Source: a virus
Virus record (IMG/VR): IMGVR_UViG_3300000265_000007
Location: 15,581-37,687 of that record
DNA length: 22,107 bases
Direction: 5' to 3' (one strand)
Both the position numbers and the translations under genes were made by a program. Below the pieces are notes generated by a model, which had not been told where the DNA came from, made no database searches, and saw only the letters and a program-made list of their open reading frames with translations. Positions 1,793 through 20,533 of the stretch are shown piece by piece; position 1 is the stretch's first letter; each line of letters opens with the position of its first letter.

Positions 1793-2239
1793 ATGGAACA
1801 AATAATTTGTAGTGGTGCTCTATTCTATTCGTTGACAACACAACGTTTCTTATTCTTACACCGTACACAATCAAAACAAAACAATGTTTGGGGTCTTGTT
1901 GGTGGAACTAACGAAGATAAAGAAATCCCTTACAAAGCTCTGCTACGTGAAGTTGAAGAAGAACTTGGCAGTATTCCAAAAATTATTAAATCAATACCAT
2001 TAGAAACATTTGTAAGTAATGATGATAAGTTTCAATTTCATACTTATTTGTGTGTTGTAAAAGATGAATTTCTACCTGTACTAAATGACGAGCATAACGG
2101 ATATGCTTGGGTTAGTTTTCAAAATTGGCCAAAGCCATTGCATATGGGATTACGCAACACATTACAAAATAAACAAAACTTAACCAAACTACAAACAGTA
2201 TTTCAACTAGTTTCGTTATTACAAGAATCGGACATTTAA
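1793..2239 (+). CDS. Nudix hydrolase
   Basis: A complete Nudix box lies at residues 38-59: G38, five residues, E44, seven residues, R52-E53-V-E-E56-E57-L-G59. The Glu cluster binds the divalent metal used to cleave nucleoside diphosphate-X bonds. The length (148) is typical of a single-domain Nudix enzyme, and the strand before the box (VWGLVGG) is also typical. The substrate cannot be read from sequence. The gene opens the heptose cassette and shares one base with hldE (TAATG), so hydrolysis of a nucleotide sugar, of nucleotide by-products, or of mutagenic nucleotides are all possible. No clear Shine-Dalgarno sequence precedes the ATG. An in-frame stop three codons beyond the preceding codons fixes the start here. 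Confidence 0.9.
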   Translation: MEQIICSGALFYSLTTQRFLFLHRTQSKQNNVWGLVGGTNEDKEIPYKALLREVEEELGSIPKIIKSIPLETFVSNDDKFQFHTYLCVVKDEFLPVLNDEHNGYAWVSFQNWPKPLHMGLRNTLQNKQNLTKLQTVFQLVSLLQESDI

Positions 2240-3384
2240 TGAATAAGGTATTAGTAATCGGTGATGTAATCATCGACAAATATATATACGGAACTTCAAC
2301 ACGGATTAGTCCTGAAGCACCTGTGCCTATAGTTAATCTTGGAAGTGTTTCAACATCTTTAGGTGGTGCAGGACTTGTTTATGAAAATTTAAAAAGCCTA
2401 GATGTTGATATAGAACTATTTGAAACTAATCAACCTAGAAGTATTAAAACTAGAGTAATCTGTGACGGACATTATATTACACGGTTAGATGAAGATGAAA
2501 CTGCAAATTCAAATGCAGTCTTAGATGAAGTATTAAGTAGTGATTTTTCTAAGTACGATTATGTTATCCTAAGCGATTACAATAAAGGTGTACTAGATAA
2601 CGCAAAACAGATTATTGCACATATTAATAGTCAAGGACCTAAAGTAATTGTAGATCCAAAACGTTATGCATGTGACTACGAAGGTGCTTGGTTAGTTAAA
2701 CCTAATAATAGTGAATTTACTAAATTTGAATTTGACGAATGGCAAGGTAATATTATTACTACTGATGCAGGACGTAGTGTATCTGCTACAATAGATAATA
2801 TTGAATATAATATTCCTGTTGAACAAGTTGAAGTATCAGATGTTACAGGTGCAGGAGATTGTTTCCTTGCTACGTTTGTATATGCACTAACAAAAGGTTA
2901 CACACATAAACGCTGTTTAGAATTGGCTGTCAAAGGTGCTACCGAAGCAGTCAAACATGTAGGCACACATATCATAACAATTGATGATATTAATGATACT
3001 ATTGTATGGACTAATGGAGTGTTTGATATACTGCATATAGGCCATTTAAAGCTACTAAGACACGCACACACGCTTGGAAAACGCCTCGTGGTGGGCATTA
3101 ATAGCGATGCAAGTGTAAAGCGTTTAAAAGGCGAAACTAGACCCATTAATGACGAACAAACACGCAAAGCCGCATTGTTAGAATTAGGATTTATTGATGA
3201 GGTAATCATATTTGACGAAGATACACCGTTAGAAACTTTGAGTAATATTATGCCCAATATAATTGTTAAGGGTGGAGATTATACAGTTGATACAGTAGTA
3301 GGAAATGAACTAGCAGAAGTTGTTATTTTTCCAACTATTGCAGGTGCAAGTACAACTAAAATTATAGACGAGATTAGAAAATGA
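2239..3384 (+). CDS. hldE: HldE-like bifunctional heptose-7-phosphate kinase / heptose-1-phosphate nucleotidyltransferase
   Basis: Two domains in the order of bacterial HldE (RfaE). The N-terminal ribokinase-like domain (1 to about 250) has GDVIIDKY (8-15), RISPEAPVP (22-30), LGGAG (41-45), LSDYNKG (111-117), VDPK (138-141), KPNNSEF (154-160) and DVTGAGD (201-207), with D207 as the expected catalytic base. The C-terminal nucleotidyltransferase domain (256-381) has TNGVFDILHIGH (258-269), NSDASVKRLKG (288-298), RPIN, EDTP and VKGGDY. In bacteria HldE phosphorylates D-glycero-D-manno-heptose-7-phosphate at C1 and, after GmhB removes the 7-phosphate, joins it to ADP. E. coli HldE is 477 residues; this one is 381. 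The loss falls after the LGGAG motif, before the GAGD motif and in the interdomain linker, while the motifs are kept. It overlaps hldD by 4 bases (ATGA), implying translational coupling. Confidence 0.93.
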   Translation: MNKVLVIGDVIIDKYIYGTSTRISPEAPVPIVNLGSVSTSLGGAGLVYENLKSLDVDIELFETNQPRSIKTRVICDGHYITRLDEDETANSNAVLDEVLSSDFSKYDYVILSDYNKGVLDNAKQIIAHINSQGPKVIVDPKRYACDYEGAWLVKPNNSEFTKFEFDEWQGNIITTDAGRSVSATIDNIEYNIPVEQVEVSDVTGAGDCFLATFVYALTKGYTHKRCLELAVKGATEAVKHVGTHIITIDDINDTIVWTNGVFDILHIGHLKLLRHAHTLGKRLVVGINSDASVKRLKGETRPINDEQTRKAALLELGFIDEVIIFDEDTPLETLSNIMPNIIVKGGDYTVDTVVGNELAEVVIFPTIAGASTTKIIDEIRK

Positions 3385-4199
3385 ATATTTTAATTACAGG
3401 ACATGAAGGCTTTATTGGTCAAAACCTTGGAGCATACTTACAATCTAAAGGACATAATGTTGAGGGCTTTGAATGGAAGCCTAACATTATACCAGATCCT
3501 GAACCTTATGATAGAGTAATTCATTTAGGTGCTATTAGTAGCACTACTGAACGTGACGTTGAAAAAATTATGGAACAGAACTATGAATTTTCAATGCGTC
3601 TATTGCAACTATGTGATCAAAAAGGAACTACATTTATGTATGCTAGTAGTGCTAGTGTATACGGTGATAAGTTTGAAGAAAATGCTAAACTACAACCACA
3701 AAATGGTTATGCATGGAGCAAGTATTTGTTTGATAGATTTGTAATGCAAGTTCCAGAGTTTATGATTAATGTACAAGGATTTAGATTCTTTAATGTATAT
3801 GGCCCAGGTGAAGAACACAAAGGCGACCAACAAAGTGTATTTGGCAAGTTTGAAAAACAAGCTAAAGAAACGGGAGTTATAAAAGTGTTTGAAGGTAGTG
3901 ATAAAATAGATAGAGATTTTATCCATGTTGGTGATGTATGCGAAATTATTGAAAAGTTTATTGATGTTGATAATACAGATATATGGAATGTTGGTACAGG
4001 CACACCTCGTTCATTTATGGACATTGCTAAACTGTATGCTAAAAAGTATAATGCTAAGATTGAAGAAATACCTATGCCAGAAAACCTTAAAGGGCAGTAC
4101 CAGTATTACACCTGCTCTCACAATAAAAAGTTAATTAATAGTATAGGTGTTCATAATTTTAGAACAATTGAGGAGTATGTAAATGCCAGCAAGACATAG
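3381..4199 (+). CDS. hldD: HldD-like ADP-L-glycero-D-manno-heptose 6-epimerase
   Basis: Extended short-chain dehydrogenase fold with an NAD(P)-binding GHEGFIG (7-13) in place of the usual GGAGFIG, the HLGAISSTTE segment (48-57), MYASSASVYG (86-95), and the Y110-x3-K114 catalytic pair. HldD-specific stretches are well kept: GFRFFNVYGP (133-142), EHKGDQQSV (145-153), FEGSDKIDRDFIHVGDV (170-186), NVGTG (203-207) and IPMPENLKGQYQ (230-241). The family inverts C6 of ADP-D-glycero-D-manno-heptose to the L-glycero form used in LPS core. At 272 residues it is about 40 shorter than E. coli HldD, mainly in the loop after the first strand-helix unit. Its position directly after hldE supports the specific assignment over a generic sugar epimerase. 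Confidence 0.92.
   Translation: MNILITGHEGFIGQNLGAYLQSKGHNVEGFEWKPNIIPDPEPYDRVIHLGAISSTTERDVEKIMEQNYEFSMRLLQLCDQKGTTFMYASSASVYGDKFEENAKLQPQNGYAWSKYLFDRFVMQVPEFMINVQGFRFFNVYGPGEEHKGDQQSVFGKFEKQAKETGVIKVFEGSDKIDRDFIHVGDVCEIIEKFIDVDNTDIWNVGTGTPRSFMDIAKLYAKKYNAKIEEIPMPENLKGQYQYYTCSHNKKLINSIGVHNFRTIEEYVNASKT
4170..4175 (+). promoter_or_regulatory. Strong ribosome binding site for the cupin gene
   Basis: GAGGAG ends 7 bases before the ATG at 4183. It sits inside the end of hldD and fixes the cupin start, giving a 17-base overlap with hldD. It is the best Shine-Dalgarno match in the left cassette. Confidence 0.7.
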
Positions 4200-4596
4200 T
4201 GGTAAAGTAGACAAAGGTTGGGGATATGAATTAATCTGGGCCACTAACGATCAATACTGTGGTAAGATTATGGTATTTGATAGAGTTGGTGCTAAGTTTA
4301 GTATGCACTTTCATAAAGAAAAAGACGAATCATGGTTTGTAAACTCAGGTTCATTTAAGTTACGATATATTGATACATCAACTGCATTAGTAATGGAAAG
4401 AGTTTTAAACTCCGGCGATACATGGAGAAATCCTCCATTAATGCCGCATCAATTAGAAGCATTAGAAGCCGGTAGTAGTATTACTGAAGTAAGCACTCCT
4501 GACTCTATTGAAGATAATTATCGTATTGCTCCAGGTGATAGTCAACCGCCACCACCACAACAAGAGATTGTTAATGATCCCAATACACAGGCGTAA
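4183..4596 (+). CDS. Small cupin-fold protein (sugar isomerase/epimerase-like)
   Basis: A 137-residue single cupin domain. Motif 1 supplies H42-x-H44 and E49 (SMHFHKEKDESW) and motif 2 supplies H89 (MPHQ), a complete 3-His/1-Glu metal site. The WGYELIW opening and the motif spacing resemble the small cupins annotated as mannose-6-phosphate isomerase-like. The last 20 or so residues are a Pro/Gln-rich disordered tail beginning PPPPQQE. The gene overlaps hldD by 17 bases, so it is very likely part of the heptose pathway, perhaps isomerising or epimerising a sugar. A cupin cannot replace the phosphatase GmhB by any mechanism known to me. Exact reaction unknown. Confidence 0.8.
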   Translation: MPARHSGKVDKGWGYELIWATNDQYCGKIMVFDRVGAKFSMHFHKEKDESWFVNSGSFKLRYIDTSTALVMERVLNSGDTWRNPPLMPHQLEALEAGSSITEVSTPDSIEDNYRIAPGDSQPPPPQQEIVNDPNTQA

Positions 4597-5170
4597 GTTA
4601 GATCTAAATTTAAGTCAATTAAAACATAATTGTAATTTTGTTTATAAGCAAATTATAGACGAGATTGCAATTCCTAATCAAGAAATTGATACTAAACACA
4701 CATCAATTCCAACGGCAGTAAGTCAATACTATAACTTGTTTACAAGTATTATGCCTGGTATGTTTGAACTACAACGTGATATTAGAAACGAATTTAAAAA
4801 CAACATTCCGCATGATGAAAGTCTAGAGTACTGGATTGTTGGTTGGTTAAATTATTGGCCCAAACAAGGAACAACACTTACCTGGCACGGACACGAGTAC
4901 GGAGATGATGATAATTGTTTCCACGGGTACTTAGGTGTACAATGTGAACCATCGCAAACTATATATCGCAACATAGGTGAAGAAGCATTAGAAATTGCTG
5001 TTGAAAACAAAAACGGACAGTTAGTTATTACTAACAGCAAAGGTGTTGAACATATGACTAGTGATTGGAAACAAGATGATCCTCGTATTACTATTGCGTT
5101 TAATATACAACCTAGAGAAACTGTTTTACAAGAAGTAGGAAATAAACTTAATTATTATGTCGGACTTTAA
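4574..5170 (+). CDS. Putative 2OG-Fe(II) oxygenase (first of a pair)
   Basis: I use the ATG at 4574 (198 residues) rather than an upstream TTG at 4508, which would read deep into the cupin gene; the chosen start overlaps the cupin by 23 bases. The double-stranded beta-helix pattern is visible: WHGHE with H105 and H107 (104-108), a strand FHGYLGV (116-122), then H160, and PRITIAFN with R171 (170-177). This fits the iron-binding histidines and the 2-oxoglutarate-binding Arg of phage-type 2OG oxygenases. Which of H105/H107/E108 bind iron cannot be settled by eye. The role is unknown. Such enzymes hydroxylate proteins, nucleic acids or small molecules. The context suggests a link to sugar or virion modification, but that is inference. 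Confidence 0.7.
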   Translation: MIPIHRRKLDLNLSQLKHNCNFVYKQIIDEIAIPNQEIDTKHTSIPTAVSQYYNLFTSIMPGMFELQRDIRNEFKNNIPHDESLEYWIVGWLNYWPKQGTTLTWHGHEYGDDDNCFHGYLGVQCEPSQTIYRNIGEEALEIAVENKNGQLVITNSKGVEHMTSDWKQDDPRITIAFNIQPRETVLQEVGNKLNYYVGL

Positions 5171-5732
5171 AGAGCTATTTTCTGTTCCTATACTAGAACA
5201 TAATGTTCCGGATCGTATTGCAGATGACGTTGAACAATTTGTAGTACCACGTTTAAAACTTATACCAAGACCCGACAACAATGCTCCGCATGGTACAGAT
5301 TATTTTGAACCTAACAAAGTAGTACATTTAATGAATGATGTACCAGAACTGTTTAGCGAAATACAAGACTGTGTTAACAAGTTTCAAGACGCATGTCATA
5401 TTAAACAACTAAAAGAAGCTAATCAATACAATTGGTGGACACAAGATTATCACGAAGGCGACATACATAACGAACATGAACACGGTATGAATCAAATATC
5501 TGGAGTATACTGGGTAAGAGCAAATGAAAATGCTGGTGGGTTATGTTTTAGAAATCCTAATCCGTTTGTCGAATATTCATCCTGGATGGATGCAAAATAT
5601 GGATGTCAAGAATACGAATTCCAACCTATAAAGGGTAAACTATTATTGTTCCCTTCTTACTTAAAACATGCAGTAATGCCTAGTAGTAGTAACGTTGTAC
5701 GCACTACTATTGCTTTCAACGTAGTGTATTAA
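5157..5732 (+). CDS. Putative 2OG-Fe(II) oxygenase (TIGR02466-like, second of a pair)
   Basis: 191 residues with the layout of small phage 2OG oxygenases: HNEHEHG (104-110), SGVYWV (115-120), GGLCFRNPNP (127-136), GKLLLFPSYLKHAV (160-173) and RTTIAFN (182-188). Candidate iron ligands are H107, H109 and H171, with R182 as the 2-oxoglutarate anchor. The motif SGvYyv...FPs.L.H...R..iaFN is the hallmark of the TIGR02466 family. It overlaps the preceding oxygenase by 14 bases and its stop codon overlaps the stop of the convergent giant gene. The two oxygenases are of similar length and share motif order, but differ in most of their sequence, so this is an old duplication or two independent gains. 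Substrate unknown. Confidence 0.8.
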   Translation: MSDFKELFSVPILEHNVPDRIADDVEQFVVPRLKLIPRPDNNAPHGTDYFEPNKVVHLMNDVPELFSEIQDCVNKFQDACHIKQLKEANQYNWWTQDYHEGDIHNEHEHGMNQISGVYWVRANENAGGLCFRNPNPFVEYSSWMDAKYGCQEYEFQPIKGKLLLFPSYLKHAVMPSSSNVVRTTIAFNVVY

Positions 5733-8700
5733 GCCTGAGCTTCACCCCATCTTAGAATAATGTTCGCAGTAGTATCTGTACCACCCGTCTTATAAACGTT
5801 AATTGCTAGTACGTCTGGACCATTTGGATATGTTCCTCTACCACCTAGTGTAGTATTTGTAAGTTCTTTCAATGCTTCAAGACTCAATGCACTCGATTGT
5901 CCTGGTGTAGCAATGAATGAAAATACTGTTTCACCCGGTTGTGCGTAAGGAGGTTGTCCAAATAAGAACCCAACTGTATCACCTGGATTAACAGTAGTGT
6001 TAGCACTCTGTGTAAATGTTACTCTGTAATAGTCTGTTGTACCAAAGCTCAATTCTTCTACATTAGATACCGCAGTACCCGCTGAGAACTTACTATCTTC
6101 AACCAAGTCACCTGCAATAGCATTTGTTGCGTCCCATGTTGTTTTTGTAAAGAACAAATAGTTAGCATTACTTAATGGACCACCAATTTGGAATGTAACT
6201 GTTGGATCAGCACTTTGTACAGTAATATTTTGATTAAATCTTAAACGTACTCTACTGTACCATGGCTCCATATATACCTGGTCAATAATTCTTGGATTAC
6301 TTGCGTAGTTGTTAGTACCTGAAGCTGTAACAGTTGTACCTGTTGAAACTTCATCATTTAAACTTTCCCATTGTGACGTTGTTAAGTATTGGTATCTACT
6401 ATTTCTATTACCATATAAGAATTCAGCAGTTTGTGTCATTGCACCTTGTACTGTTGCACTTCTAATAATCTGTGTTGCACCAGTTGACCATACAACAGAA
6501 CCACCTGGAGCAACTTGAGCAAAGCTCGGTTGTCCACCAGCCGCCGCACCTGTTAGTGCTGACCAACCAACGTCTCCTGGGTTAATTGGATAGTTTTGTG
6601 GATTCAAAATACCTTCAACAACAATACCACCACTAATTGGATTATTTGAACCATCATATCCATCTGATGTAATTTCAATACCTTCTAGTAGTAACTGAGC
6701 TCTGTTTAGTAGTTCTCTTTCACCTAAGTCACCAACGATAGCGTTACTAACACTAGGTGCTAGTCTTAACATAAACACAGTATTTCTTGTTGTACTAATT
6801 TCGTTACCTGCAGATGTGTATGAGAAAATATAACCACGATCTTCATCAAAGCCACCGTCTGTTAAGAACGCTGATCCCCAGTGTGATATGATTGGAGTAA
6901 TTGTATTACTAATCAAAATTACACCAGTTCGTTCACTGTGTGTTACTGCACCACCTGCTGTATAAGTTCTTGTTGCACCTGCCGCAAAGTTTGTTAGTGG
7001 AGCACTTCTAGTACACCCTGTTAGGGTATCTCCTGTTACACCTGTATATGCTATCATTTCGTTATCAATAATAACTGTACCAGTTGTTGGGAAGAATGAC
7101 GCTGTAATTAACGGAATTGTAGTTTGTGTTGCATCCATGTCAGCCGCTAGTCTGTCATTAGGTCCTTCGTTAGTAACTTCATAACGCACAGGCATGTTAC
7201 CAGTACGCATAAATGCTTCTGTGTTAATGTTTGAGTTACGCATTCTGTGATAGAAAATAAAGTTACCATCATCACCACGTAGCATATAGTCAATAAAACC
7301 AGCACCATACCAACTGTACTGAATACCAATCATCTGCATCTTACTGATGTCCATGATATATCCACTACTACCTAAGCCGTCTAGTGTATCTTTGTTAAAG
7401 TCATCTTGTTTAGTTTTCTTATCACTAATTAAACATAGTTTAGCACCTGTAGCATTAGTGTTACCTCTAAAGTCAGGTGTTACTGTCATTGCAGTATCTG
7501 AAGTTACCTGTGAAACAACATGTGTCATTCCTTTAACAACAATTCTATCACCAGCTTTAAGTTGATCTCTAAATCTTGTTCCCGATCCTGTACATGTGTT
7601 TGAATCAACTGCTATTGCAACTGTACCTGCTAACTGTAGTGTAGCAGTTCTTTGTACAGCACTAAAGTTTGATCCATCGTACTCCATAAAGATTCCGTTT
7701 TGATCATCAAATGCACCTGAACGCACAGTTGCACCGTGCCAGTTAAGCAACGATACTTGTGCTCTTGTACTTAATATTGGCGATAATGACCCAACAGCAA
7801 TTTGTGATATAACTTTAAATGTTCTTTCACTTACAATACTTGCTACTGTATAATTTCCGTTATAACCTGGTGTTTCAATACCAATTAATCTAATTGCTCC
7901 ACCAACTTGTAGTCCGTGGTCAACATCGTCTGTTGTAACTGATATAAAGCTACCTGCTTGTAGATCGTCTGCTGTTACATTTAATAGATCGTAACTTGGA
8001 GCAAACAATGCACCAGTGGTATACATAATACCTTTACCTGACTGGTATCTAATATATTTTTTACTCTGTCTAATTGCTTGAGCACCATGTTGTGGTCCAC
8101 CTGTACCAAGCATAACTCCACCATCATATGGTCTGTGTACAAAGAATGAGTCTGGTCTTGGATAAAGCGTAGCACTAATATCACCAGTTTGTGTAATAGT
8201 ACCTGGAGCTCTACATTGGTATCTTAAACTTGTTGTAGTTGGAACCTGTTGTGCAAAGAACGGACCTTCTAATAATGTGTGATTGTTAGTACCATCATCT
8301 GAGTTTTGTGTAACAATAAATGCATCACCTGGTATCAATCCGTGTGCTGATGCAAACGAAACTTCAGTTGTTGCCAAGGCCGCAAACGCAATTAATGTTG
8401 GGCTTGGTATTGCTTGTGTTATTGGTTCTGACATTGTTACAGTTGCATAAGTTACTGTTACATCACCTGGAACTGCTGTTCCTGTAATAGATGTGTCAAC
8501 AATACTACCGTCTGTTGATACTTCAGATATAACAATCGAAGCATCATTAGTTGGACTTGCACCGCCTAACTCAGTACCTAGTACTTTAATTTTGTTACCA
8601 ACTTGATAGTTTTCACCGTCAGTTTCTAATACTGGATTACTATAACTGCTACCAGTTCTTTGTATAGCAAACGTTGCACTTGTACCTGTGTTACTTAATG

Positions 8701-11700
8701 CTTGAGCACCAATATCAACATACGCGGCAGTTCCACTTGGACCTGTACCTGCAACACTAATTGTTGCAACAGAACCTTCATCAGTTCTTGTACCACTATC
8801 GTCTGTTGTATCAATAGTAATTGTTAAATCGTTTGCTGGACTTTGACCACCTAGTTGTGATCCTGGAACTAAAATTGTATGATCATCAAAGTAACCTGTA
8901 CCTGGAGTATTAACTACACCAGTATATGCTCCATTACTAATTGTAATATCAAAACTTGCAGTACTACCTTGTAGCATTTGAATCTGATTTGAACTCTGTT
9001 TAACATCTTGGAATACTACTTCGTCATTACCTGAACCACCTATTGTTGCTGTTAAGATTTCTCCACCAACGTCAATAGTAGCTACTGTAATTGTTGCGTC
9101 ATTTGCTGGCGTTGCTCCACCTAATATGTTACCTGCTACAACAAATGTTTCACCAGCTAAGTATCCTGTACCAGAGTTTGTAATTGTTACTCCGTATACT
9201 GAACCTGTTTTACTAATACTAAAGTCTGCTGTTGAACCTGAACCTGTTGGATATGTATATGCTACACTTGGATAAGTTTCGTTAGCTGTTGGACCTGTAC
9301 CTGTAATTGTAAAGCCAGTAATAACTCCTGTACTTACTGATGTAACTTCAATAAGTGCATCATTAAGTGGACTTGTTCCTCCTGGGAATACATCTCCTTG
9401 TATAGCTAATCTATCTCCAACTACATACCCTTGTGTTGGTGCTAATGCTGTACCTGAACTTGTAATACTCGTAATACTACCAGCGGCATCTACACCTGTA
9501 ATAGTAATTGTAATATCGTTTGCTGGACTTTGACCACCTACGTTATTACCAAGAATTGTAAGTGTTGAACTGTTAGCATAGTCTTGTCCAATAGTACTAC
9601 CAATTGAAACTGAATACGTTCCATTTGAATTTTGTGTAACATTAAATGTTGCACCTGTTCCTTGAACGTTATATCCTGAAGTAATATTAGTAAATGAGGC
9701 ACTATTAACTGCTGTACCTGTAATACTTAAACCTGTAATTTCTCCACTGCCGCCAACACTATCAATAGTAACTGTTGCATCGTTAGTTGGACTTGTACCA
9801 CCTAATTCTGTACCTAGTATTGTAAATGTTTCGTTTTGTGCATATCCTGAACCTGGTGCTGATGGGTTAACTGTGTATGTGCTACCTGTAAATGCAACGT
9901 TAACTTCTGCTCCTGTACCTATTGAACTTGTAGTAAATGAAGGTCCTGCAAAGTTTGCTACTGCGTCTGCACCTGCGCCTGATTCTGTAAAAGATGTAAT
10001 TGCACCTGTGCCGTCAACACCTGAGATTGTAATATCTAAATCGTTAGTTGGACTTGCACCTCCAAAAACGTTTCCTGGAATTCTAATAACTCCACCTACG
10101 GTATATCCTGCATCTGTTGATCCAGCATTTTTAGTAACTGGGTTATAAATGTTGTTAGTTAAAGTAACATCCCATGTTGCTCCAGTTCCGCCTGTTCCTG
10201 CTTCTGGAGGTAAATCTGTAAATGTTGGGTCATCAGTTACGGCTGTGTATGTACCGGCACTACTCGTAACATCAAGTATTAGTCCTGTACCAGCACCGTT
10301 AATATTTGTACCTACAACACTTGTTAATACTGCATTACCATCAAATGCTACACCTGTGAAACTAAATGTTAAAATTACTCCGCCAACATCAATAGTATCA
10401 ACTGTAATTCTTAAATCGTTTGTACCTGAAGTACCACCTAATGTTTGTCCGTCTACAACTAACACATCACCTGCTTCAAAGTTAATACCTGCTGTTTGCA
10501 TTGCAACTGTGTATTGTCCTAAAGTAGGATTACCTCTATCAATATTAAACGTTGCACCTGAACCTGCTGATTCATAATTAGTACCAGTAATTCCTGAGTA
10601 TGTTACTGTGTTACCAACAATCGCCCCTGTAGTATTTCCATCAAAGTTAAGTGTGTTACCTACAATAGTAGTAACATGAATCGCTGTTCCGTCACCTCTA
10701 TCAATTGCTTCACCTTGTGTAATACCTGTTGCGTCAACAAGAGTAATTGCATTTGTACCAATTGGATAATCTCCATTAACGTCAAGTGTATTTAAAACAC
10801 CACCGTTATCTGATACACCACTAACTCCGCCTGTTATACTTGTAACCTGAGCACCACTTCCAATACCAGCACCTTGTGTAATACTAGCAACTACAAACGT
10901 AAAGTCTGCGCCTCCACCAGCACCCAATGAACCGTCTACAACAGTAAGAATATCGCCTGCGGCGTTATTTCTACCTGGATTTAAAATTGTAATACTTGTA
11001 ACTTCACCAGTTCCGCTAACAACAATAGTATACGTACCTGTAATTAAATCTGCCGCAATGCTGTTTGAAAATGCTGTTGAAACTGTATATGTTCCGCCTG
11101 TTCTACTTGCGTCTGCGGCACCAAATGTACCAACTGTTGCTACTTGGCCACCTTCATTAATAACTGGAGCACCAACTTCTGGAGCAGTTCCTGACCAAGT
11201 AACAATACTTGATCCTGTTTCTGCCGCTAATGGGTTAATCCATGTACCTGCCGCACCCTGTGATAAAATAGTAAACTGTGGTTGACCAATTGCCGCACCT
11301 GTATAAAATCCTGCTTGTCTTAACTGCGTATAGTATGTTGATAATACTTCACCGTTAGTTGAGCCAACTTTTGATTTAGCAAAGAATGTAAATGTACTGT
11401 TAGTTGGAACAGTTGAAACAATAAACGATCCCTCTGCTCTACTTGCACCAGCAACACTATTTTCTAGTGCCTTAATTGTAATAGGAGTACCTGCTACAAT
11501 ACCGTGTGGTCCAACTGTAGTTACAGTAATTAAACTTTGTCCAACACCGTTTGTACCAGCTGAAGCATCTGTTACAACTGTTGATACAACTGTATCTGTG
11601 CCTGGTACTTCGTAAATACTTGGATACCCTCTTTGCATAGCAATCGCTTGCCACTTTGTAGGCTGTAGTCCATACTCAAAGTCAGCATCAAGCATAGATA

Positions 11701-13444: not shown

Positions 13445-13452
13445 TTGTTTTC

Positions 13453-14481
13453 CTACATTCCGAAAGCAACAGCCATTGCTGATGCCCTGCTGTCCACATA
13501 TTTTTTGTTAGTAACTGTCGTAGCCGATGTTGGTTTTGCTTGTACTTGTGCTGTAGCAAACGTTGCATTAGCCGGAGTTACTGCTCCAATTGTAGTGTTA
13601 TTTATTGTTCCTGAGGTCGCTATTAAGTTATTAGTGGTAACTGAGCCTGCCTTAGATAAACCAATGTTTACACCGTCTATATTACCGCCACCCGATGGAG
13701 CAACAGTTAATCTACCATTGCCTGCTGGGCTTACATTTACATCTGCATTTAAACCTGTAAAGTTTGAAGTTGAATTTACTGTTAATAAATTAGCAGTAAT
13801 ATCCATGTTACTAAGTGTTCCACCGTTTGCTGGATTAATAACTACTGTTCCCGAACTTCCACTAGGTGCAAGTGTAATAACTGCATTTTCGCCTTGGGCT
13901 GTTAAATTGCCTGTTGTTGTAATTCTACTAAAGTTACCAATACCACTAACTAGTGGGTCAATAACTGTAATTTCTACTAATGGTATTTGATCACCATCAC
14001 CATACCATAATGATGCTGGTGTGTTATCAGGTACACTAAAAGTTAATTTACCTTCAAACTTACTTTGAGCGTCAATACCTGTTACTGTTGTAGTACCATC
14101 TAAAGATGTGTGTGATAGCCCTGAAGTAAATGGTTGGTATACTGATCCATCAAAGCTATAAAAATTCAATGTCATGTTACCAGTAATATCACCGGCTTCG
14201 TTTAATTCTCTTAAAAATAAATTAAAAACATAACTACTTCCCCTAGTTAATTCAAACGTTGGGTTTGCTAATAAGTTAGGTTCGTCATCTGGATCTATTT
14301 TGCCATCAATAGTAAAACTGTTACCAGCTTGACGGAATAAAAAGTCACCAGCAGTATCTACAACATCTTCTGTAACTGTATATGTAAGTGTACGAAGTTG
14401 TACATTACCTACGTCATCGACTATGAAACCCGGGCTTTTAAAGCCATACTGAGCTTGGAAGGGTGATTTAATTACTGCCAT
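13453..14481 (-). CDS. Virion structural protein (342 aa), tail fibre-associated
   Basis: It opens with SPFQAQYGFKSPGF and a segment VQLRTLTYTVTEDV, followed by a beta-sandwich-like region (about 75-180) with LTRGSSYVFNL, SGLSHTS and LTFSVP. The second half is a low-complexity Asn/Thr/Ser/Gly region built from short strand repeats (LTAQGENAVITLAPSGS, VVINPANGGTLSNM and LTVAPSGGGNIDGV are related). The C-terminus reads NKKYVDSRASAMAVAFGM, a typical phage fibre-protein ending. I recall this class as a common structural protein of marine T4-like phages; the exact place in the virion is unknown. A GGAGAA Shine-Dalgarno at 14487-14492 supports the start. It lies 8 bases upstream of the giant gene, so the two are probably co-translated and assembled together. 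Confidence 0.8.
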   Translation of the reverse strand: MAVIKSPFQAQYGFKSPGFIVDDVGNVQLRTLTYTVTEDVVDTAGDFLFRQAGNSFTIDGKIDPDDEPNLLANPTFELTRGSSYVFNLFLRELNEAGDITGNMTLNFYSFDGSVYQPFTSGLSHTSLDGTTTVTGIDAQSKFEGKLTFSVPDNTPASLWYGDGDQIPLVEITVIDPLVSGIGNFSRITTTGNLTAQGENAVITLAPSGSSGTVVINPANGGTLSNMDITANLLTVNSTSNFTGLNADVNVSPAGNGRLTVAPSGGGNIDGVNIGLSKAGSVTTNNLIATSGTINNTTIGAVTPANATFATAQVQAKPTSATTVTNKKYVDSRASAMAVAFGM

Positions 14482-14497
14482 TTAGTTTCTCCAATAG

Positions 14498-14505
14498 TAT
14501 TTATC
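14498..14505 (-). promoter_or_regulatory. T4-late-promoter-like octamer upstream of the 342-residue gene
   Basis: On the minus strand this reads GATAAATA, 7 of 8 bases of TATAAATA, 16 bases before the ATG and next to the stop of the upstream gene. A good Shine-Dalgarno (GGAGAA) lies between it and the start. The best late-promoter match on the minus strand in this window; it would drive the 342-residue and giant structural genes. Confidence 0.55.
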
Positions 14506-14506
14506 A

Positions 14507-16207
14507 CTAGCTTTGTACCACTATTAATCCATGCATTGCTCCATGGAATTGACAGTTATAATGATAAGTTCCTACTGCTGAAGGTGTCCAAGCTACTGAT
14601 CCTGAAGATGATGCACCTTGTCCTGTTGCTAATGGATTTGTTACAATATTACCTGTACCTGTTGAGTTTTGTGCTTTAATATAGAATGGATGTCCTGGTG
14701 CATTCATAGTAAATGTAACTGTATCATTAACATTAATTGTTACCGTTTGGTTAGCACCATTTACTGTACCTAATCTATCTGTGCCGTTTAATGTATATGA
14801 ACCTGAGCCGTTATTTGAAGTTGCTATTGTATAACTGTTTCCTGGTGTTGTACTTGTATCAATAATAGCAATACTCTTAGTTGATTCTCCATTGTCTAGT
14901 GCAATTACAAATCCTTCATCGCCTTCTGTTGTTGCATCAGCTGTTGCAGTAAGTGTAATACTATCCGTTGTTCCAACAACAAAGTTTCCTGTTAATGCCG
15001 CGCCACCTATGTCTGCACCTGTTACACCTGAAATTGTATAAGGTAAAATAGTACCATTTTCAACATTTGATGTTGAAAGTGTAATTGTAAATACTCCGCC
15101 TTCGTTAACTGTGTTAGTAGATGATCCTAATGTATAACTTGGAATAATTGGACTTAAACTCGTGTCGCCGATTGCAACTTCAACGATTGTACTTGTACCG
15201 TCAATTGACATTTGGAATGTTTCTGCACCGTCTGTTAATAGATCTTCAGTTGCAGTATAAACAATTGATTCTACAGTTCCAATCTCAAAGTTACCTGTTA
15301 AGTCTGCTCCGCCTATATCTGCTGAGTCAACTCCTGTAATTGTATATCCAACTAGTGTGCCGTTTGCAACGTTTTCAGAAGTTAATGTAATAGTAAATGA
15401 TCCACCTTCATCAACTGTTGCCGCACTAGTTGTAAGTCCGTAACTGATAGCTGGTGTTGTACTTGTATCTTGGATAACAATACTAGTAGTAGCTTGATTG
15501 TTATCAAGTTTAACTGTCATTACTTCTTGACCTTCTGTTGCTAAGTCAACAGTAACAGGGAAACTAAGAATATCTGTTGTTCCAACAATAAATGTTCCTG
15601 TAAGATTTAATCCACCTATATCTGCACTTTGTATACCTGAAATTGTATAAGGTAAAACTGTACCCGCAAGTACATTTGATGTAACTAATTCTACTGTAAC
15701 TGTTTGTCCAAGTTCTCCAGTATTTGTAGTGCTTGGATTTAATGTATAAACTGGTGCGTTTGCCGCAACGTTTGATCCTAATAGTGTTGCTGTAGGTTCG
15801 TTCTGTGTTGCATAATAGTTTGCTGAGTAAATTACTTTTGCTCCTGCAATAGCAGTTGAGTCATCTTGTACTCTTGGATATGCCATAAGTTTAAAGTACG
15901 AATCTGTAACTTCAACTTCTAATTGTAATAGGTCATCTCCTAAATTACTACGTCCGTAAACAACAATATTTGCTTTACTAGTACTAGCTGTTGCCATTGC
16001 TTTAATTACTTCTTTGCGTTCACTATTTACATCACATGCAATAGTGTATTCTACACCAAAGTAACTACCAACGTACCAACGGTCTAATTCTGTTCCTGCC
16101 TCTACTAACGAATAGCTTGGCCCTGCATAAGACAAGTTGGTTCCATTACGAAACTCAATCGTACTATTTTGTCCGCGTCTAAAGTATTTGGTGATATCGA
16201 AGCTCAT
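14507..16207 (-). CDS. Virion protein with three Calx-beta-like repeats and a C-terminal cupredoxin domain
   Basis: 566 residues in three parts. Residues 1-150 are an alpha/beta N-terminal domain starting MSFDITKYFRRGQNSTIEFRNG; I know this type only as unnamed structural protein sequence. Residues 154-250, 256-351 and 358-453 are Calx-beta-like repeats (VNEGGxFTITL, PYTISGVxxADIGG, LTGNFxVGT, TEGxExF, IxDTS). Residues 457-566 form a cupredoxin-like domain: VNDTVTFTM, GHPFYIK with H506, then TYHYNCQFHGAMHG with C552, H555 and M558. This is the His/Cys/His/Met set expected of a type 1 copper site, though the C-x2-H-x2-M spacing is tighter than plastocyanin's C-x2-H-x4-M. No signal peptide is visible. 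Its neighbours are structural genes, so it is probably in the virion; copper binding is inferred. Confidence 0.8.
   Translation of the reverse strand: MSFDITKYFRRGQNSTIEFRNGTNLSYAGPSYSLVEAGTELDRWYVGSYFGVEYTIACDVNSERKEVIKAMATASTSKANIVVYGRSNLGDDLLQLEVEVTDSYFKLMAYPRVQDDSTAIAGAKVIYSANYYATQNEPTATLLGSNVAANAPVYTLNPSTTNTGELGQTVTVELVTSNVLAGTVLPYTISGIQSADIGGLNLTGTFIVGTTDILSFPVTVDLATEGQEVMTVKLDNNQATTSIVIQDTSTTPAISYGLTTSAATVDEGGSFTITLTSENVANGTLVGYTITGVDSADIGGADLTGNFEIGTVESIVYTATEDLLTDGAETFQMSIDGTSTIVEVAIGDTSLSPIIPSYTLGSSTNTVNEGGVFTITLSTSNVENGTILPYTISGVTGADIGGAALTGNFVVGTTDSITLTATADATTEGDEGFVIALDNGESTKSIAIIDTSTTPGNSYTIATSNNGSGSYTLNGTDRLGTVNGANQTVTINVNDTVTFTMNAPGHPFYIKAQNSTGTGNIVTNPLATGQGASSSGSVAWTPSAVGTYHYNCQFHGAMHGLIVVQS
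14849..15748 (-). repeat. Three tandem Calx-beta-like domains
   Basis: Three units of about 96 residues at bases 15748-15458, 15442-15155 and 15136-14849. Each carries a (V/G)(D/N/E)(E/L)G...(F/V)T(I/V)xL strand, an ADIGGxxLTG core and a C-terminal DTS. In characterised Calx-beta domains this fold is a beta-sandwich found in adhesion and extracellular proteins, often binding calcium; several acidic residues that could do so are present here. Confidence 0.8.
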
Positions 16208-16233
16208 TGTACCTTTTACATTCCTCTTTAGTA

Positions 16234-16241
16234 TATTTACC
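16234..16241 (-). promoter_or_regulatory. Weak late-promoter-like octamer upstream of the Calx-beta/cupredoxin gene
   Basis: The minus strand reads GGTAAATA, keeping the TAAATA core (6 of 8). It is followed by two purine-rich Shine-Dalgarno candidates, AAGAGGA and AAAAGG, before the ATG at 16207. The 56-base gap between the methyltransferase stop and this start is one of the larger ones here and could separate the sugar cassette from the structural genes. Confidence 0.35.
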
Positions 16242-16263
16242 TAATTATGGACTGTTACGATTG

Positions 16264-16893
16264 CTAGTGGTGTAAGCGTGTAATACCTAAATACCACATA
16301 TCTAAAGGGTATTGTTTGCTTACAAAATGATGTGTAATTTGTAAATTGTTATCAGTAATCATGTCTTGGAATGTGTCAGGATTTGATCCCCATACATTTT
16401 CAGCAAGTACAATAATTCCATCGTCGGTTAGGTAATTGTTAACATTGTTAAAGAAATTTTTATGTATAGACCAGTCTAAATCTTTATATTTCCTTGGATC
16501 GTCATAGTGTGCTACATACGGATCCATGTTAAAGTGAGGTGGATTAGCAACAATTAGGTCAAATTTTTGTTGCGGAATATTTGTAAAGTTGTCACTTAGA
16601 AAAAATTGTGCAGTATCTTGTAAGTTATTTTCTTTTATTGTTTGTAATACAGGAAGCTGAGTTGGCTCATAGATGTCTGCCAATGTAACTTTGTTTGCTA
16701 TGCCTGTTGCAAGTAATCCAAACCCCCAAAAGCCTGGTCCACTACACCATTCTAGTACATTGTTAAATTTTTTATCTTCGCTTATTGCTTGTGTTGCATC
16801 AATAAAGTCATCGACCATTGTATTGCCACAGCCGTCTGTGTCTTTGGTCCAGTGAATCTTTATATCAAAGTATTGGATAAAGTCATCTTCCAT
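16264..16893 (-). CDS. Class I SAM-dependent methyltransferase with an NPPH motif
   Basis: 209 residues. The SAM-binding motif I is VLEWCSGPGFWGFGLL (46-61), the acidic end of strand 2 is D73 (TLADIYEP), and motif IV is DLIVANPPH (112-120). An NPP(Y/F/W/H) motif marks enzymes that methylate planar nitrogens (RsmC, PrmC and N6-adenine DNA methyltransferase types); here the fourth residue is His. The length fits a small MTS-type domain without a target-recognition domain. It lies 4 bases after the carbamoyltransferase gene, so the target may be shared with that pathway, but the motif points to an amide or ring nitrogen rather than a sugar hydroxyl. No clear Shine-Dalgarno precedes the ATG. Target unknown. 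Confidence 0.85.
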   Translation of the reverse strand: MEDDFIQYFDIKIHWTKDTDGCGNTMVDDFIDATQAISEDKKFNNVLEWCSGPGFWGFGLLATGIANKVTLADIYEPTQLPVLQTIKENNLQDTAQFFLSDNFTNIPQQKFDLIVANPPHFNMDPYVAHYDDPRKYKDLDWSIHKNFFNNVNNYLTDDGIIVLAENVWGSNPDTFQDMITDNNLQITHHFVSKQYPLDMWYLGITRLHH

Positions 16894-16897
16894 GACT

Positions 16898-18709
16898 TTA
16901 ATTGTTTACTGTAATTAGCTTATTGTATTCTGGCAAATAAAGATATTCAATATCACTATTACGTAGTGTACGTACAGCATCATCTAGTGTTTCAACTAAC
17001 GGTTCGCCACCTAAGTTAAAACTAGTATTGAAAATTATACTAGTACCAGTACGTTCTTTGAACGCTTTGATAATGTCATAGTAATGTTTGTTTTGATCTC
17101 TATTAACTGTTTGAATTCTACATGTGCCATCTACGTGAATAATACTTGGAATCTTTTCAGCAATACCAGGTTGACAGTTTACAGCATACATCATTGTTGG
17201 TGAACTTTTCATTCCACGTAAGTCAAACCATTCATGTACATCTTCTTCTAGTATACTACCTGCAAACGGACGGAAGTATTCTCTACGTTTAACTTTGTTT
17301 ACATAATCTTTACCATTAGGATCACTTGGATCATACATAATAGTTCTATTACCTAATGCACGTGGACCGTTTTCACTACGTCCTTGGAATAATGTAACAA
17401 TCTTTCTATTAGCAAGTAAGTCTACAGCTTTAGTATTATCTGCATCTTCAACTGTTGCATTATACTTTTCTACAACTGCATTAATTTCTTCGTCTGTATA
17501 ACTGTAAGCTGGTCCTTCATATAGTGTTTCTTGCTGTTCTTGACGTTTGTTACTTTTAGTTAAACGTCTATGCATTAACATTGCACCACCCATTGCTGTA
17601 CCTGCATCGTTACTTACTGGTTCAACATAAATTTCAATGCCTTCGTCTTTTAATTCTTCTAAGTAATGATAGTTAGCAACACAATTAAGTCCGTATCCGC
17701 CACTAATAACTACTTTGTTCTTACCTGACATTGCAACTGCTTTGCGAATTAAATTTGCAACTTCTGTTTGGCTTTCTGTTTGTATTTGATAAGCCATGTT
17801 ACGTCTGTTTTCTAAATATGTTACATCTTGATTTTCTTCATCGCCATGATTAGTTAAGTATGTGTGCATGTTGTAATTAACATGAGCACCATTAGGATAC
17901 GTTGGAACAATAACATGTCTATCTGCTTGTGATGTCATTGTATCATGTCTAAATATTTTAGGTGCCGGACTGTCTGCTTTACCGTATGGAAATAATCCCA
18001 TAGTTTTACCTGCTTCAATAAAACTGAATCCACAGTACTCTGTAACTGCTTCATACGCTTTAACAATACCAGCATTTTCTGAAATAACTAATTCGTGTGT
18101 TTGATCCTTATCTTCGTCATACATTTCACTTGAAAATTCAGGCATCCATGCACCCATAACAGGTCCATTAGCACCAATGTGTTTGTATAATGTTTTAAAG
18201 TTATCTGGATAGTTGCAATCGTAAATACTTTCTGTTTCCCAAACAGTAGTAGGAACTCCGCCGATATCTAATGTAATAAATGTTCCAGCACCATCAACAA
18301 TAACTGCACAAGCATCTTCAAATCCTGAACGATAAAAAGCACAAGCGGCATGTAACTTGTGGTGTATGTTTGACATGTCAATTACTTGAGGATGATTTCC
18401 TCCTTGGTATGCTTCACGTTTAATAAGTCCTAGCTTACGTGCAAGTCCTGTATAAACATCATCGCCACTAAAGTCTACTTTGCCAGCAGTTTGTTCTAAA
18501 TTTTGTGTATGTGCAACAACTAAAAAGTCTAGCTTGTCTGTATATTCAAGTATCTTAATCATACTTGCATATGGGCCGCCATCGTATTTTTGTCTTGTTA
18601 GGCGTTCTTCTTCAATTGAAAAAACAATTTCACCATCTTTTAATAAACATACTCCGCCGTTATGTCCTCTAGCAATTCCAGCGATCCATACTGATTTTTT
18701 ACTTGGCAT
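16898..18709 (-). CDS. NodU/CmcH-family O-carbamoyltransferase
   Basis: 603 residues, full length for the family. The N-terminal kinase-like Kae1-type domain has SIEEERLTRQK (31-41), NIHHKLHAACAFY (114-126, with the conserved His residues), VDGAG (138-142), GKTMGLFPYG (234-243), SGGYGLNCVAN (336-346) and EPVSNDAGTAMGGA (363-376). The C-terminal domain has GRSENGPRALGNRTI (443-457), REYFRPFAGSIL (476-487), HVDGTCRIQTV (525-535) and NTSFNLGGEP (561-570). The family makes carbamoyl-adenylate from carbamoyl phosphate and ATP and transfers the carbamoyl to a hydroxyl. Targets include sugars (NodU), antibiotics (TobZ, CmcH) and, in some phages, hydroxymethylcytosine in DNA. No base-hydroxymethylase is in this window. 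It overlaps the SGNH gene by 11 bases, with GAGG 10 bases upstream of the ATG. Confidence 0.95.
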   Translation of the reverse strand: MPSKKSVWIAGIARGHNGGVCLLKDGEIVFSIEEERLTRQKYDGGPYASMIKILEYTDKLDFLVVAHTQNLEQTAGKVDFSGDDVYTGLARKLGLIKREAYQGGNHPQVIDMSNIHHKLHAACAFYRSGFEDACAVIVDGAGTFITLDIGGVPTTVWETESIYDCNYPDNFKTLYKHIGANGPVMGAWMPEFSSEMYDEDKDQTHELVISENAGIVKAYEAVTEYCGFSFIEAGKTMGLFPYGKADSPAPKIFRHDTMTSQADRHVIVPTYPNGAHVNYNMHTYLTNHGDEENQDVTYLENRRNMAYQIQTESQTEVANLIRKAVAMSGKNKVVISGGYGLNCVANYHYLEELKDEGIEIYVEPVSNDAGTAMGGAMLMHRRLTKSNKRQEQQETLYEGPAYSYTDEEINAVVEKYNATVEDADNTKAVDLLANRKIVTLFQGRSENGPRALGNRTIMYDPSDPNGKDYVNKVKRREYFRPFAGSILEEDVHEWFDLRGMKSSPTMMYAVNCQPGIAEKIPSIIHVDGTCRIQTVNRDQNKHYYDIIKAFKERTGTSIIFNTSFNLGGEPLVETLDDAVRTLRNSDIEYLYLPEYNKLITVNN

Positions 18710-19535
18710 CTTTTATTCCTCTATAACTTCTATCCCAATTTGCTAATTGCAAATTTGTAATATTTTTAATAGTTTCTTTGTAGTCGTTAGTTTTACAATC
18801 TATAACAGTATCTATCATTTTTTGTGTTTGTTCTGATAAGTTGTGGCTTAGATATGATTGGCAAAAACTTAAATGCTGTACTGGACTAGGGTGTAACTCT
18901 AACCATTTTTCGCCATTTCCTTCAAACCACCAACTAGAGTCTGGTCTATTCCAAGCATGTAATCCTAATGATTCTAGCCATTCAGGACCTTCTAGTACGT
19001 ATCTATATTGTTCTAGATTAAACTCTTTAAATGCATCAGCAAGTTCAGGTGTATTTCTTAAATTTTCACCATGTCCTTTTTGATGCGGAATATCTGTTCC
19101 TAATGTTTCTAAGTTACTAATACTTGTAAAATGAAACTTACAATTTGTATCTTTTAATAAACCCTTAGTAAGTATAATGTTATTCATTGTGTGTAAAAAC
19201 AATGCTTTTTCATCATAAAAAGTTTCTATCCATTTGTCATCAAATACTTCTTTGTTCTGATAACTGAATATACTACCTTTAGTTTGCCAAGGTTCTGCGT
19301 GTTTAAAGTTAAGATAATCGTAACGTAAATGACTTGACCATTGTACTATTACTGTATCGTCTTTGTCAAATTCATTTGTAGCGTGGCATTCTGCAACACG
19401 TTCAGCAATAGCTCTATTTCCTAAGCCTGCATGACCCCAATTTTCATAGTGGTCAAATTGCTGTGCATAAATGTCTGCGTAGGTTGGCCAATTCCATGAT
19501 GTATAGGAACACCCAAATACAAATAAGCGTTTCAT
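18699..19535 (-). CDS. SGNH/GDSL-like hydrolase or acyl esterase
   Basis: 278 residues. Block I is FVFGCSYT (6-12 with S10 as candidate nucleophile), block II GLGN (37-40), block III VQWSSH (65-69, where the usual Gly-x-Asn is replaced), and block V HPSPVQH (215-221) with H221 as candidate catalytic His. This is the layout of SGNH hydrolases, which add or remove acyl groups on sugars and other hydroxyls. The Trp-rich middle (WFEGNGEKW) is not a part of the family I can place. It starts 2 bases after the GT9 stop and overlaps the carbamoyltransferase start, so it is translationally coupled in the sugar cassette. The altered block III lowers certainty on catalysis. Confidence 0.7.
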   Translation of the reverse strand: MKRLFVFGCSYTSWNWPTYADIYAQQFDHYENWGHAGLGNRAIAERVAECHATNEFDKDDTVIVQWSSHLRYDYLNFKHAEPWQTKGSIFSYQNKEVFDDKWIETFYDEKALFLHTMNNIILTKGLLKDTNCKFHFTSISNLETLGTDIPHQKGHGENLRNTPELADAFKEFNLEQYRYVLEGPEWLESLGLHAWNRPDSSWWFEGNGEKWLELHPSPVQHLSFCQSYLSHNLSEQTQKMIDTVIDCKTNDYKETIKNITNLQLANWDRSYRGIKDAK

Positions 19536-19537
19536 TC

Positions 19538-20533
19538 TTAAGCAGGAGTTGCTTCTTTGGTCGTACTATTGTAGTTTACACCAACTTTTTTCTTATTTCT
19601 AATTCCTGCTGTTACTGAATCACAAATGACACTTTCAACTTTGTCATTCATTGCCATGATACCGTCATTAACTCTATCTGCATATTCATCTGTTGTAACT
19701 CTAATAGGTGAATATACTCTAGCACCTTCGCCCATGTCTAAAATATCAAAGTTTTTATCTTCTGGATACGAAACATTAACTGGAAAAGTTGATCCTATTA
19801 CTACTGTACATTTAATACCTAGTGCATGTGCAATATGTTGCCCTACACTATCACAGCCTAAAAAGTAATCTGCATTTGCAATAATTCCTGCCCAATGTCT
19901 TAGGTCTGCACCCATAGGACTTGCTACAGGTTCTTTACATCCGTGTTTTGAAAAGTCAATACCAAACTCTGCCATGTGTACCATTGCATATTTTTTAGAA
20001 AGTGATTTAACAATATTAACTGAATTTTCAGCTTCAAAACTTCTACCACTCCAGTCAGTAATTACACCATTGTCATGTTGTACTGCTCTACCAAATGGTT
20101 GAAAAACAACTACTTTGTCTTTTTTAGTTTTTTCTTTAACTTCGTCTACTAGCTTTTTACCAAACAACATTTCTTCTCTAGAAAGTTTTAAAATTGGTTT
20201 GCTTAATTTACGTAATCCTTTATTATTAATTTGAATATCGTATGCTTCTGCAATACTACATTGTTGGTTGTAGTATTCCCAAGCTCTGTAAGGCTCAGGT
20301 GTAATCAAATTCATATCTTTAAGTTTATCTTGGAAAAGATTCTTGTGCCAGTGATCGTATGCCTTTGCATGGAGTACTGGATGACCTTTATAAAAGTCAG
20401 TACCGCCTTCGCATACAATGATAAAGTTATCGTCTGGATTTTCTTCTGCAAACTTCTCAAGTGCCGGAATACTAGCAAGAACTCTGCCAGCGCCACCATT
20501 GATGAAAATAGCTGTATTTCTTTTATCTGTCAT
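19538..20533 (-). CDS. GT9-family glycosyltransferase (ADP-heptose:LPS heptosyltransferase-like)
   Basis: 331 residues with the two Rossmann-like domains of GT-B fold enzymes. The N-terminal loop INGGAGRVLASIPALEKF (11-28) matches the GGIGDxLxATPAL signature. The C-terminal half has VVVFQPFGRA (141-150), WSGRSF (161-166), ADLRHWAGIIANADYFLGCD (209-228), and DSVGQHIAHALG (228-239), the GT9 donor-binding region (usually DSGxxHxA). GT9 enzymes (WaaC, WaaF, WaaQ) move heptose from ADP-heptose to LPS core; the related autotransporter heptosyltransferases modify Ser residues of beta-helical adhesins. The usual acceptor-site Asp of WaaC cannot be confirmed by eye. The Shine-Dalgarno AAGGA is 8 bases before the ATG. 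Together with hldE and hldD on the other strand it completes a synthesis-and-transfer set. Confidence 0.85.
   Translation of the reverse strand: MTDKRNTAIFINGGAGRVLASIPALEKFAEENPDDNFIIVCEGGTDFYKGHPVLHAKAYDHWHKNLFQDKLKDMNLITPEPYRAWEYYNQQCSIAEAYDIQINNKGLRKLSKPILKLSREEMLFGKKLVDEVKEKTKKDKVVVFQPFGRAVQHDNGVITDWSGRSFEAENSVNIVKSLSKKYAMVHMAEFGIDFSKHGCKEPVASPMGADLRHWAGIIANADYFLGCDSVGQHIAHALGIKCTVVIGSTFPVNVSYPEDKNFDILDMGEGARVYSPIRVTTDEYADRVNDGIMAMNDKVESVICDSVTAGIRNKKKVGVNYNSTTKEATPA

Follow-up and report, generated by a model that had tools for sequence, protein, structure and literature searches.

The window analysed here, a stretch of 22,107 nucleotides covering bases 15581-37687 of the 37,687-bp virus record IMGVR_UViG_3300000265_000007, carries two sets of sugar-related genes on opposite strands, parted by a giant tail-fibre-like gene. 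Between 1793 and 5732 the + strand carries a chain of six genes, each overlapping the next, that code among others for HldE-like and HldD-like enzymes; on the - strand lie a GT9-like protein, an O-carbamoyltransferase and their neighbours. The two are parts of a single mobile cassette (NUDIX-HldE-HldD-cupin plus GT9-like-carbamoyltransferase), and we lean towards reading the window as a phage glycosylation cassette whose halves flank the fibre gene and which would supply ADP-heptose for a carbamoylated glycan. This reading draws on homology, residue conservation, linkage and predicted folds, from which the reaction steps are inferred. The features are, in window coordinates:

1793-2239, + strand: NUDIX hydrolase, opening the operon of overlapping genes (PF00293, E 6e-15; Nudix box GTNEDKEIPYKALLREVEEELG intact)
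2239-3384, + strand: HldE-like fused kinase-adenylyltransferase, 381 aa (best NCBIfam model NF008454, E 6e-83)
3381-4199, + strand: HldD-like ADP-heptose 6-epimerase, 272 aa (TIGR02197, E 8e-71; PDB 1eq2, E 5e-46)
4183-4596, + strand: small metal-site cupin, candidate phosphoheptose isomerase (model with a predicted local distance difference test score, pLDDT, of 87)
4574-5170, + strand: 2-oxoglutarate (2OG)-Fe(II) oxygenase-like protein, start uncertain (PHROG 2696, E 3e-14; PHROG 81, 2OG oxygenase, E 2.5e-4)
5157-5732, + strand: 2OG-Fe(II) oxygenase (PF13759, E 2e-18)
5729-13444, - strand: open reading frame of a 2571-aa tail-fibre-like structural protein with glycine-rich repeats, parting the two cassette halves
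16264-16893, - strand: small methyltransferase of the cassette (PF05175, E 3e-8; homologue within the S-SSM7 cassette)
16898-18709, - strand: NodU/TobZ-type O-carbamoyltransferase (PF16861, E 8e-58; PF02543, E 1e-22; PHROG 1601, E 2e-160)
18699-19535, - strand: protein of unassigned function between the GT9-like protein and the carbamoyltransferase, present in 56/68 GT9-like loci
19538-20533, - strand: GT9-fold glycosyltransferase-like protein (PHROG 8954; PF01075 below cut-off, predicted fold GT9)

Linkage of the two modules and the enzymes they encode

The association of these genes is retained across related viruses. Among the viral contigs retrieved by searching with the HldE-like protein, 31 loci have 3.5 kb on both sides of the gene, and within that distance HldD is found in 31/31, the cupin in 30/31, the NUDIX gene in 26/31 and a GmhB-like gene in 9/31. 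In the viral contigs that the GT9-like protein retrieved, the carbamoyltransferase adjoins the GT9-like gene at all 68 flanked loci (68/68). Both modules lie within about 10 kb in several contigs (L108, L109, L112, L144, L149, L154, L157 and L164), HldE and the GT9-like gene are about 12-20 kb apart in larger related records (G001, G002, G003, G005, G007, G008, G012 and G013), and in the window the modules are about 16 kb apart, around the fibre gene. Among annotated phages, the 23/23 records with a GT9-like match of at least 38% identity carry HldE-like genes; the converse is untrue. A preliminary description of this DNA had singled out HldE, HldD and a GT9 heptosyltransferase, and missed the carbamoyltransferase, the cupin, the NUDIX hydrolase and the 2OG oxygenases as members of the same cassette.

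Profile searches of those three proteins returned the HldE and HldD families, below cut-off, and GT9, below cut-off as well. The HldE-like protein joins a minimal kinase of about 250 aa to a nucleotidyltransferase of about 130 aa, is 38% identical to Escherichia coli HldE and retains DVTGAGD, TNGVFDILHIGH and VKGGDY; the PfkB GAGD, the nucleotidyltransferase HxGH and VKGGDY are all present, with DVTGAGD, FDILHIGH and VKGGDY aligning with the E. coli enzyme. The solved structures closest to it are the heptose-7-phosphate kinase 4e84 and the nucleotidyltransferase 5x9q. The HldD-like protein, also 38% identical to its E. coli counterpart and with the catalytic motifs retained, has only HldD structures among its PDB matches at E <= 1e-15 (4/4). 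Its residues Y110, K114 and K147, invariant in an alignment with the E. coli enzyme and two homologues from phages, correspond to the Tyr and Lys of YxxxK and to the Lys of EGHKG, the second catalytic Lys of HldD, and the HldD-specific stretches SSTTE, FNVYGP-E-HKG and LKGQYQ are kept. Profile searches and alignment thus agree with the earlier observation of an HldE with both catalytic motif sets, and the TIGR02197 match and the nearest structures with that of an HldD bearing family-specific stretches, though in both cases at scores below cut-off. Since the curated cut-offs are missed, the names “HldE-like” and “HldD-like” are used, and function is claimed by motif and context. Of the proposal that the phage makes its own ADP-heptose, the last steps are well supported, as the two genes adjoin, overlap and are conserved together (31/31).

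The GT9-like protein is better recognised by its predicted structure. Its AlphaFold2 model (pLDDT 86, from 42 homologues) has a GT-B fold of GT9 type, and Foldseek places 3TOV as its best match (8.5e-10), followed by WaaC, TibC and WaaF, ahead of nearly all other folds. At sequence level, PF01075 gives E 0.086 and 12.6 bits for a cut-off of 22, short of membership; the profile search of the whole record gave no GT9 match at E <= 0.001, and the profile of the protein found no glycosyltransferase in the PDB by sequence. The homologue from cyanophage S-CAM1 just attains the Pfam cut-off, with 22.0 bits. A plain “GT9 family member” label was dropped at sequence level because the profile scores are too low. 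D228 is kept, in alignment with Asp261 of heptosyltransferases. The neighbouring carbamoyltransferase is clear in both of its domains (PF16861, 195 bits; PF02543, 81 bits), with 7xb6 (E 2e-55) and TobZ (E 4e-40) as PDB matches.

The protein at 18699-19535 has no match in Pfam or PHROG; its start, GCSYT...G.GN, recalls SGNH hydrolases.

The isomerase and phosphatase steps

The 37,687-bp record has no member of the GmhA family (PF13580/TIGR00441), not even with the threshold relaxed to E <= 10, and none was found in the related viral records (0/24), one of them of 268 kb. The absence of GmhA and GmhB pointed out in the preliminary description extends to the rest of the record, and this 268-kb near relative is without both. 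A GmhB-like phosphatase occurs in 6/24 related records, lying close to HldE or its nucleotidyltransferase in five (the L164 protein reaches 132 bits with NF006506), and is not found in a 48-kb contig nearly identical to the window phage; GmhB-like or mini-HAD phosphatases are carried by many relatives, not by the window record.

One small protein, very likely such a phosphatase, has been filed under another name:

L002:17312-17656, L003:15159-15482, L004:19055-19390 and L237:8421-8747: HAD phosphatase-like protein of EcbF/BcbF type, annotated “phosphoheptose isomerase”

The 110-aa cyanophage protein so annotated matches TIGR01689 (capsule HAD phosphatases) at E 1e-8, under the threshold set for that family, with DxDxT, T, K and DD conserved; by this match and these motifs it is very probably a phosphatase, and its annotation, repeated in the literature (PMC7378029), an error. 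The T4-GC306 cyanophage “phosphoheptose isomerase” was accordingly rejected as a GmhA. In addition, a gene resembling class I fructose-bisphosphate aldolases lies between HldE and HldD in some relatives (L100:6738-7559, L124:3449-4237 and L126:11146-11934; PRK05377, 241 bits for L126) and might supply a seven-carbon precursor.

With GmhA absent, no protein of the cassette other than the cupin resembles an isomerase. Its metal site HxHx4E...H (H42, H44, E49 and H89) is invariant in 27 phage sequences and in 40 phage and cellular sequences taken together, and its structural and sequence kin include D-lyxose, L-ribose and phosphomannose isomerases, at weak similarity, the D-lyxose isomerase 7nzp and the phosphomannose isomerase 7zvy being among the structural ones. 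The gene is present in 35 of 50,697 annotated phage records, which are without exception marine cyanophages or single-cell virus records of marine origin. A supported branch separates the cupin of the window from those of the cyanophages, so that there are two cupin lineages, each tied to heptose genes. Scanning GTDB genomes with the cupin gave 62 loci, with an HldE-like gene nearby in 12, among which L207, L208, L209, L217 and L232 look cellular. The cellular genomes found via the cupin hold HldE domain II in 32/32 cases and a GmhA-like match above 80 bits in only 8/32. Within one bacterial class, that around one of the cellular cupin genomes, the cupin is found in 23 and GmhA in 64 of 118 genomes, both together in 1 (Fisher p 2.9e-8), that is, GmhA in 1/23 cupin-positive versus 63/95 cupin-negative genomes. 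We therefore propose, tentatively and from sequence comparison, that the cupin may be a new class of phosphoheptose isomerase displacing GmhA non-orthologously in marine phages and in an HldE-positive, GmhA-negative bacterial clade, which would leave the phosphatase step alone as lineage-variable.

This assignment must be weighed against several observations. The structural neighbours of the cupin also include decarboxylases and dioxygenases; the cupin-positive, GmhA-negative bacteria fall in one cupin clade, so the mutual exclusion may reflect one replacement event; and two marine bacterial genomes (L173 and L174) have the cupin without heptose genes. In the order of Marinoscillum the cupin occurs in 1/147 genomes, too rarely to inform a contrast between cupin and GmhA in either direction. 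The chances seem evenly divided as to whether the cupin is instead a mannose-6-phosphate-type isomerase serving a different sugar, or else works after HldD as a tailoring enzyme: the weak similarity to phosphomannose and lyxose isomerases agrees with this, as does the gene adjoining the cupin in L208, L211 and L232, which reads as GDP-mannose-dehydratase-like, but no GDP-mannose genes were seen in the phage cassette, the GmhA step would then be missing in 24/24 viral records, and the near exclusion of cupin and GmhA would be left aside. A search of the available literature returned nothing relevant on a cupin phosphoheptose isomerase or on phage virion heptosylation.

One of the cellular-looking loci, L207:8719-14408, belongs to a metagenome-assembled genome (MAG) contig labelled “Bifidobacterium breve” and has the HldE halves, the cupin, HldD and the mini-HAD around a transketolase-like gene; the organism label is doubtful.

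The proposed product and its destination

In the pathway that we envisage, the cupin would convert sedoheptulose-7-P into heptose-7-P, the kinase domain of the HldE-like protein would phosphorylate it at C1, a phosphatase of the host, or one not seen here, would remove the 7-phosphate, the C-terminal HldE-like domain would adenylylate the sugar and the HldD-like enzyme would yield ADP-heptose by 6-epimerisation. The second half, on the - strand (GT9-like protein, 18699-19535 protein, O-carbamoyltransferase and methyltransferase), would transfer and decorate this sugar, with the GT9-like protein as putative heptosyltransferase by its modelled fold, the NodU/TobZ-type enzyme responsible for carbamoylation, and perhaps methylation or hydroxylation besides. 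The product would probably be heptose bearing a carbamoyl group, attached to a virion protein or to host surface glycan, which is chemically plausible given that 7-O-carbamoylation occurs in the lipopolysaccharide (LPS) core of Pseudomonas aeruginosa (PMC7168646).

A number of findings weigh against this pathway. The HldE-like protein stays under the curated cut-offs of NF008454 (279/521 bits), TIGR02199 (155/181.5) and TIGR02198 (180/345), and its alignment with the E. coli enzyme has gaps of 27, 17 and 30 columns besides a shorter N-terminus, so that kinase segments are missing; the HldD-like protein, which is shortened, scores 238.8 bits for a TIGR02197 cut-off of 274.6. Neither GmhB nor any phosphatase for the 7-phosphate is encoded in the record, GmhB being missing from the 268-kb relative too, and the pair of GT9-like protein and carbamoyltransferase is found without HldE in G004, G010 and G014, which are large, incomplete records. 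As for the GT9-like protein, comparison with WaaC and WaaF profiles gives an hhalign probability of 12%, which is weak, and the catalytic position is altered. Asp13 is the proposed catalytic base in WaaC, where D13A loses 4688-fold activity, and is present in all heptosyltransferases reviewed (PMC5713226); aligned by hand via the GxxxxxxP spacing, the corresponding position is R17 (GD -> GR), an Arg invariant in 42 sequences. This replacement is the reason for calling the protein GT9-like: its modelled fold is that of GT9, and its active site is altered. Of the “GT9 heptosyltransferase” of the preliminary description, the fold is borne out by AlphaFold2 and Foldseek, and profile membership and the catalytic Asp are not.

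The lineage of the phage bears on the host. The left part of the record, which we take to be T4-like structural genes, has a tail sheath, a tail tube and a gp32-like protein recognised by sequence, and the large terminase is nearest to those of the jumbo T4-like phages PA5oct (55%), Phosso (49%) and Atu_ph07 (52%). On these sequence grounds the contig comes from a T4-like phage whose terminase links it to the jumbo phages. The 25 best terminase matches include no cyanophage; the suggested cyanobacterial host without heptose is therefore unsupported for the contig, and a cyanophage origin was discarded. The idea of a foreign sugar is relevant instead to a homologous cassette: cyanophage Sf-FS3 has the full gene set, its listed host is Synechococcus WH8102, and the LPS of this strain contains no heptose (PMC4515613).

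A - strand structural protein with repeats at 14507-16207 ends in H...C..H..MHG, which resembles a plastocyanin-type copper site.

Virion glycosylation is not the sole use to which ADP-heptose could be put. That the genes top up the host heptose pool or remodel host LPS, for example to block superinfection, is a serious prospect, if a somewhat less than even one: WaaC and WaaF, kin of the GT9-like protein, act on LPS, and such a role has been put forward for the sugar genes of pelagimyophages (PMC7029224). The cassette, however, sits among tail-fibre genes both here and in cyanophages, and TibC, a protein heptosyltransferase, is an equally good structural match to the GT9-like protein. The LPS of Synechococcus WH8102, too, is devoid of heptose (PMC4515613). 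It is unlikely that the cassette makes another activated sugar, with the HldE-like and HldD-like enzymes drifted to a different sugar phosphate that the GT9-like protein transfers, for while all three proteins fall under curated cut-offs, the kinase is minimal and the GT9-like catalytic Asp is replaced, the HldD-specific stretches are kept, the nearest structures are all HldD, and sister cassettes repeatedly carry GmhB-like or HAD phosphatases, which a route through heptose bisphosphate requires.

Read as a carbamoyl-heptose cassette, these genes would join proteins filed as “cysteine dioxygenase”, “phosphoheptose isomerase” and “hypothetical protein” into one phage heptose-glycan pathway, spread over many marine viral contigs and found in a cultured Synechococcus WH8102 phage too. 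Should the cupin prove to be the isomerase, a gap in the textbook pathway would be filled for phages and for HldE-positive, GmhA-negative bacteria. Whether a foreign sugar is placed on the virion or on the host surface is directly testable in a cultured pair, for which Sf-FS3 and WH8102 are best suited.

Other genes were observed in these neighbourhoods. A ferredoxin-dependent bilin reductase (PF05996, E 2e-19) adjoins a 5-aminolevulinate/oxononanoate synthase look-alike at L154:7060-8906, within the neighbourhood of a heptose cassette; two open reading frames resembling flavin-dependent tryptophan halogenases lie between NUDIX and HldE at L110:7006-9995, and the S-SSM7 cassette also holds an annotated tryptophan halogenase. 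The phage cassette is also found on contigs filed as bacterial or archaeal MAGs (L171, L172, L198, L204, L205, L206 and L223, labelled Neomarinimicrobiota, Rhodobacteraceae, Planctomycetaceae, Thaumarchaeota or Euryarchaeota), probably mis-binned phage DNA.

Comparison with known systems

The ADP-heptose pathway of E. coli K-12 (GmhA, HldE, GmhB and HldD) resembles the window in its fused HldE and in HldD, whose catalytic motifs are shared, and differs in that the window record lacks GmhA and GmhB, has a minimal kinase and a shortened HldD, and carries a cupin and a NUDIX hydrolase alongside. With WaaC, WaaF and TibC, the GT9-like protein has in common the predicted fold and D228 as equivalent of Asp261; unlike them, it remains below the PF01075 cut-off and has Arg at the Asp13 position in all 42 homologues. 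Pelagimyophages are alike in being marine T4-like phages whose host-recognition region bears genes for sugar activation; the available text of that report describes rfaE and no such cassette (PMC7029224), and the terminase of the present record is nearest to the jumbo phages PA5oct and Phosso.

The closest parallel is offered by the cyanophages P-SSM2, S-CAM1, S-SSM7 and Sf-FS3 (T4-GC 302-308), which have the same gene set near tail-fibre genes, in one run ordered as GT9-like, carbamoyltransferase, nucleotidyltransferase, kinase, mini-HAD, cupin and HldD. In these phages the kinase and nucleotidyltransferase are separate genes, the nucleotidyltransferase coming first, the mini-HAD is present and the modules are contiguous, whereas in the window the two activities are fused, a mini-HAD was not found and a 7.7-kb fibre gene stands between the modules. 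As heptose genes have already been published for a cyanophage (PMC7378029) and rfaE for pelagimyophages (PMC7029224), the finding is at its core of a known kind. It departs from those cases in the jumbo-like phage lineage, in an HldE that is both fused and minimal, and in the splitting of the cassette, to which come the reading of the “isomerase” as a phosphatase and the hypothesis on the cupin.

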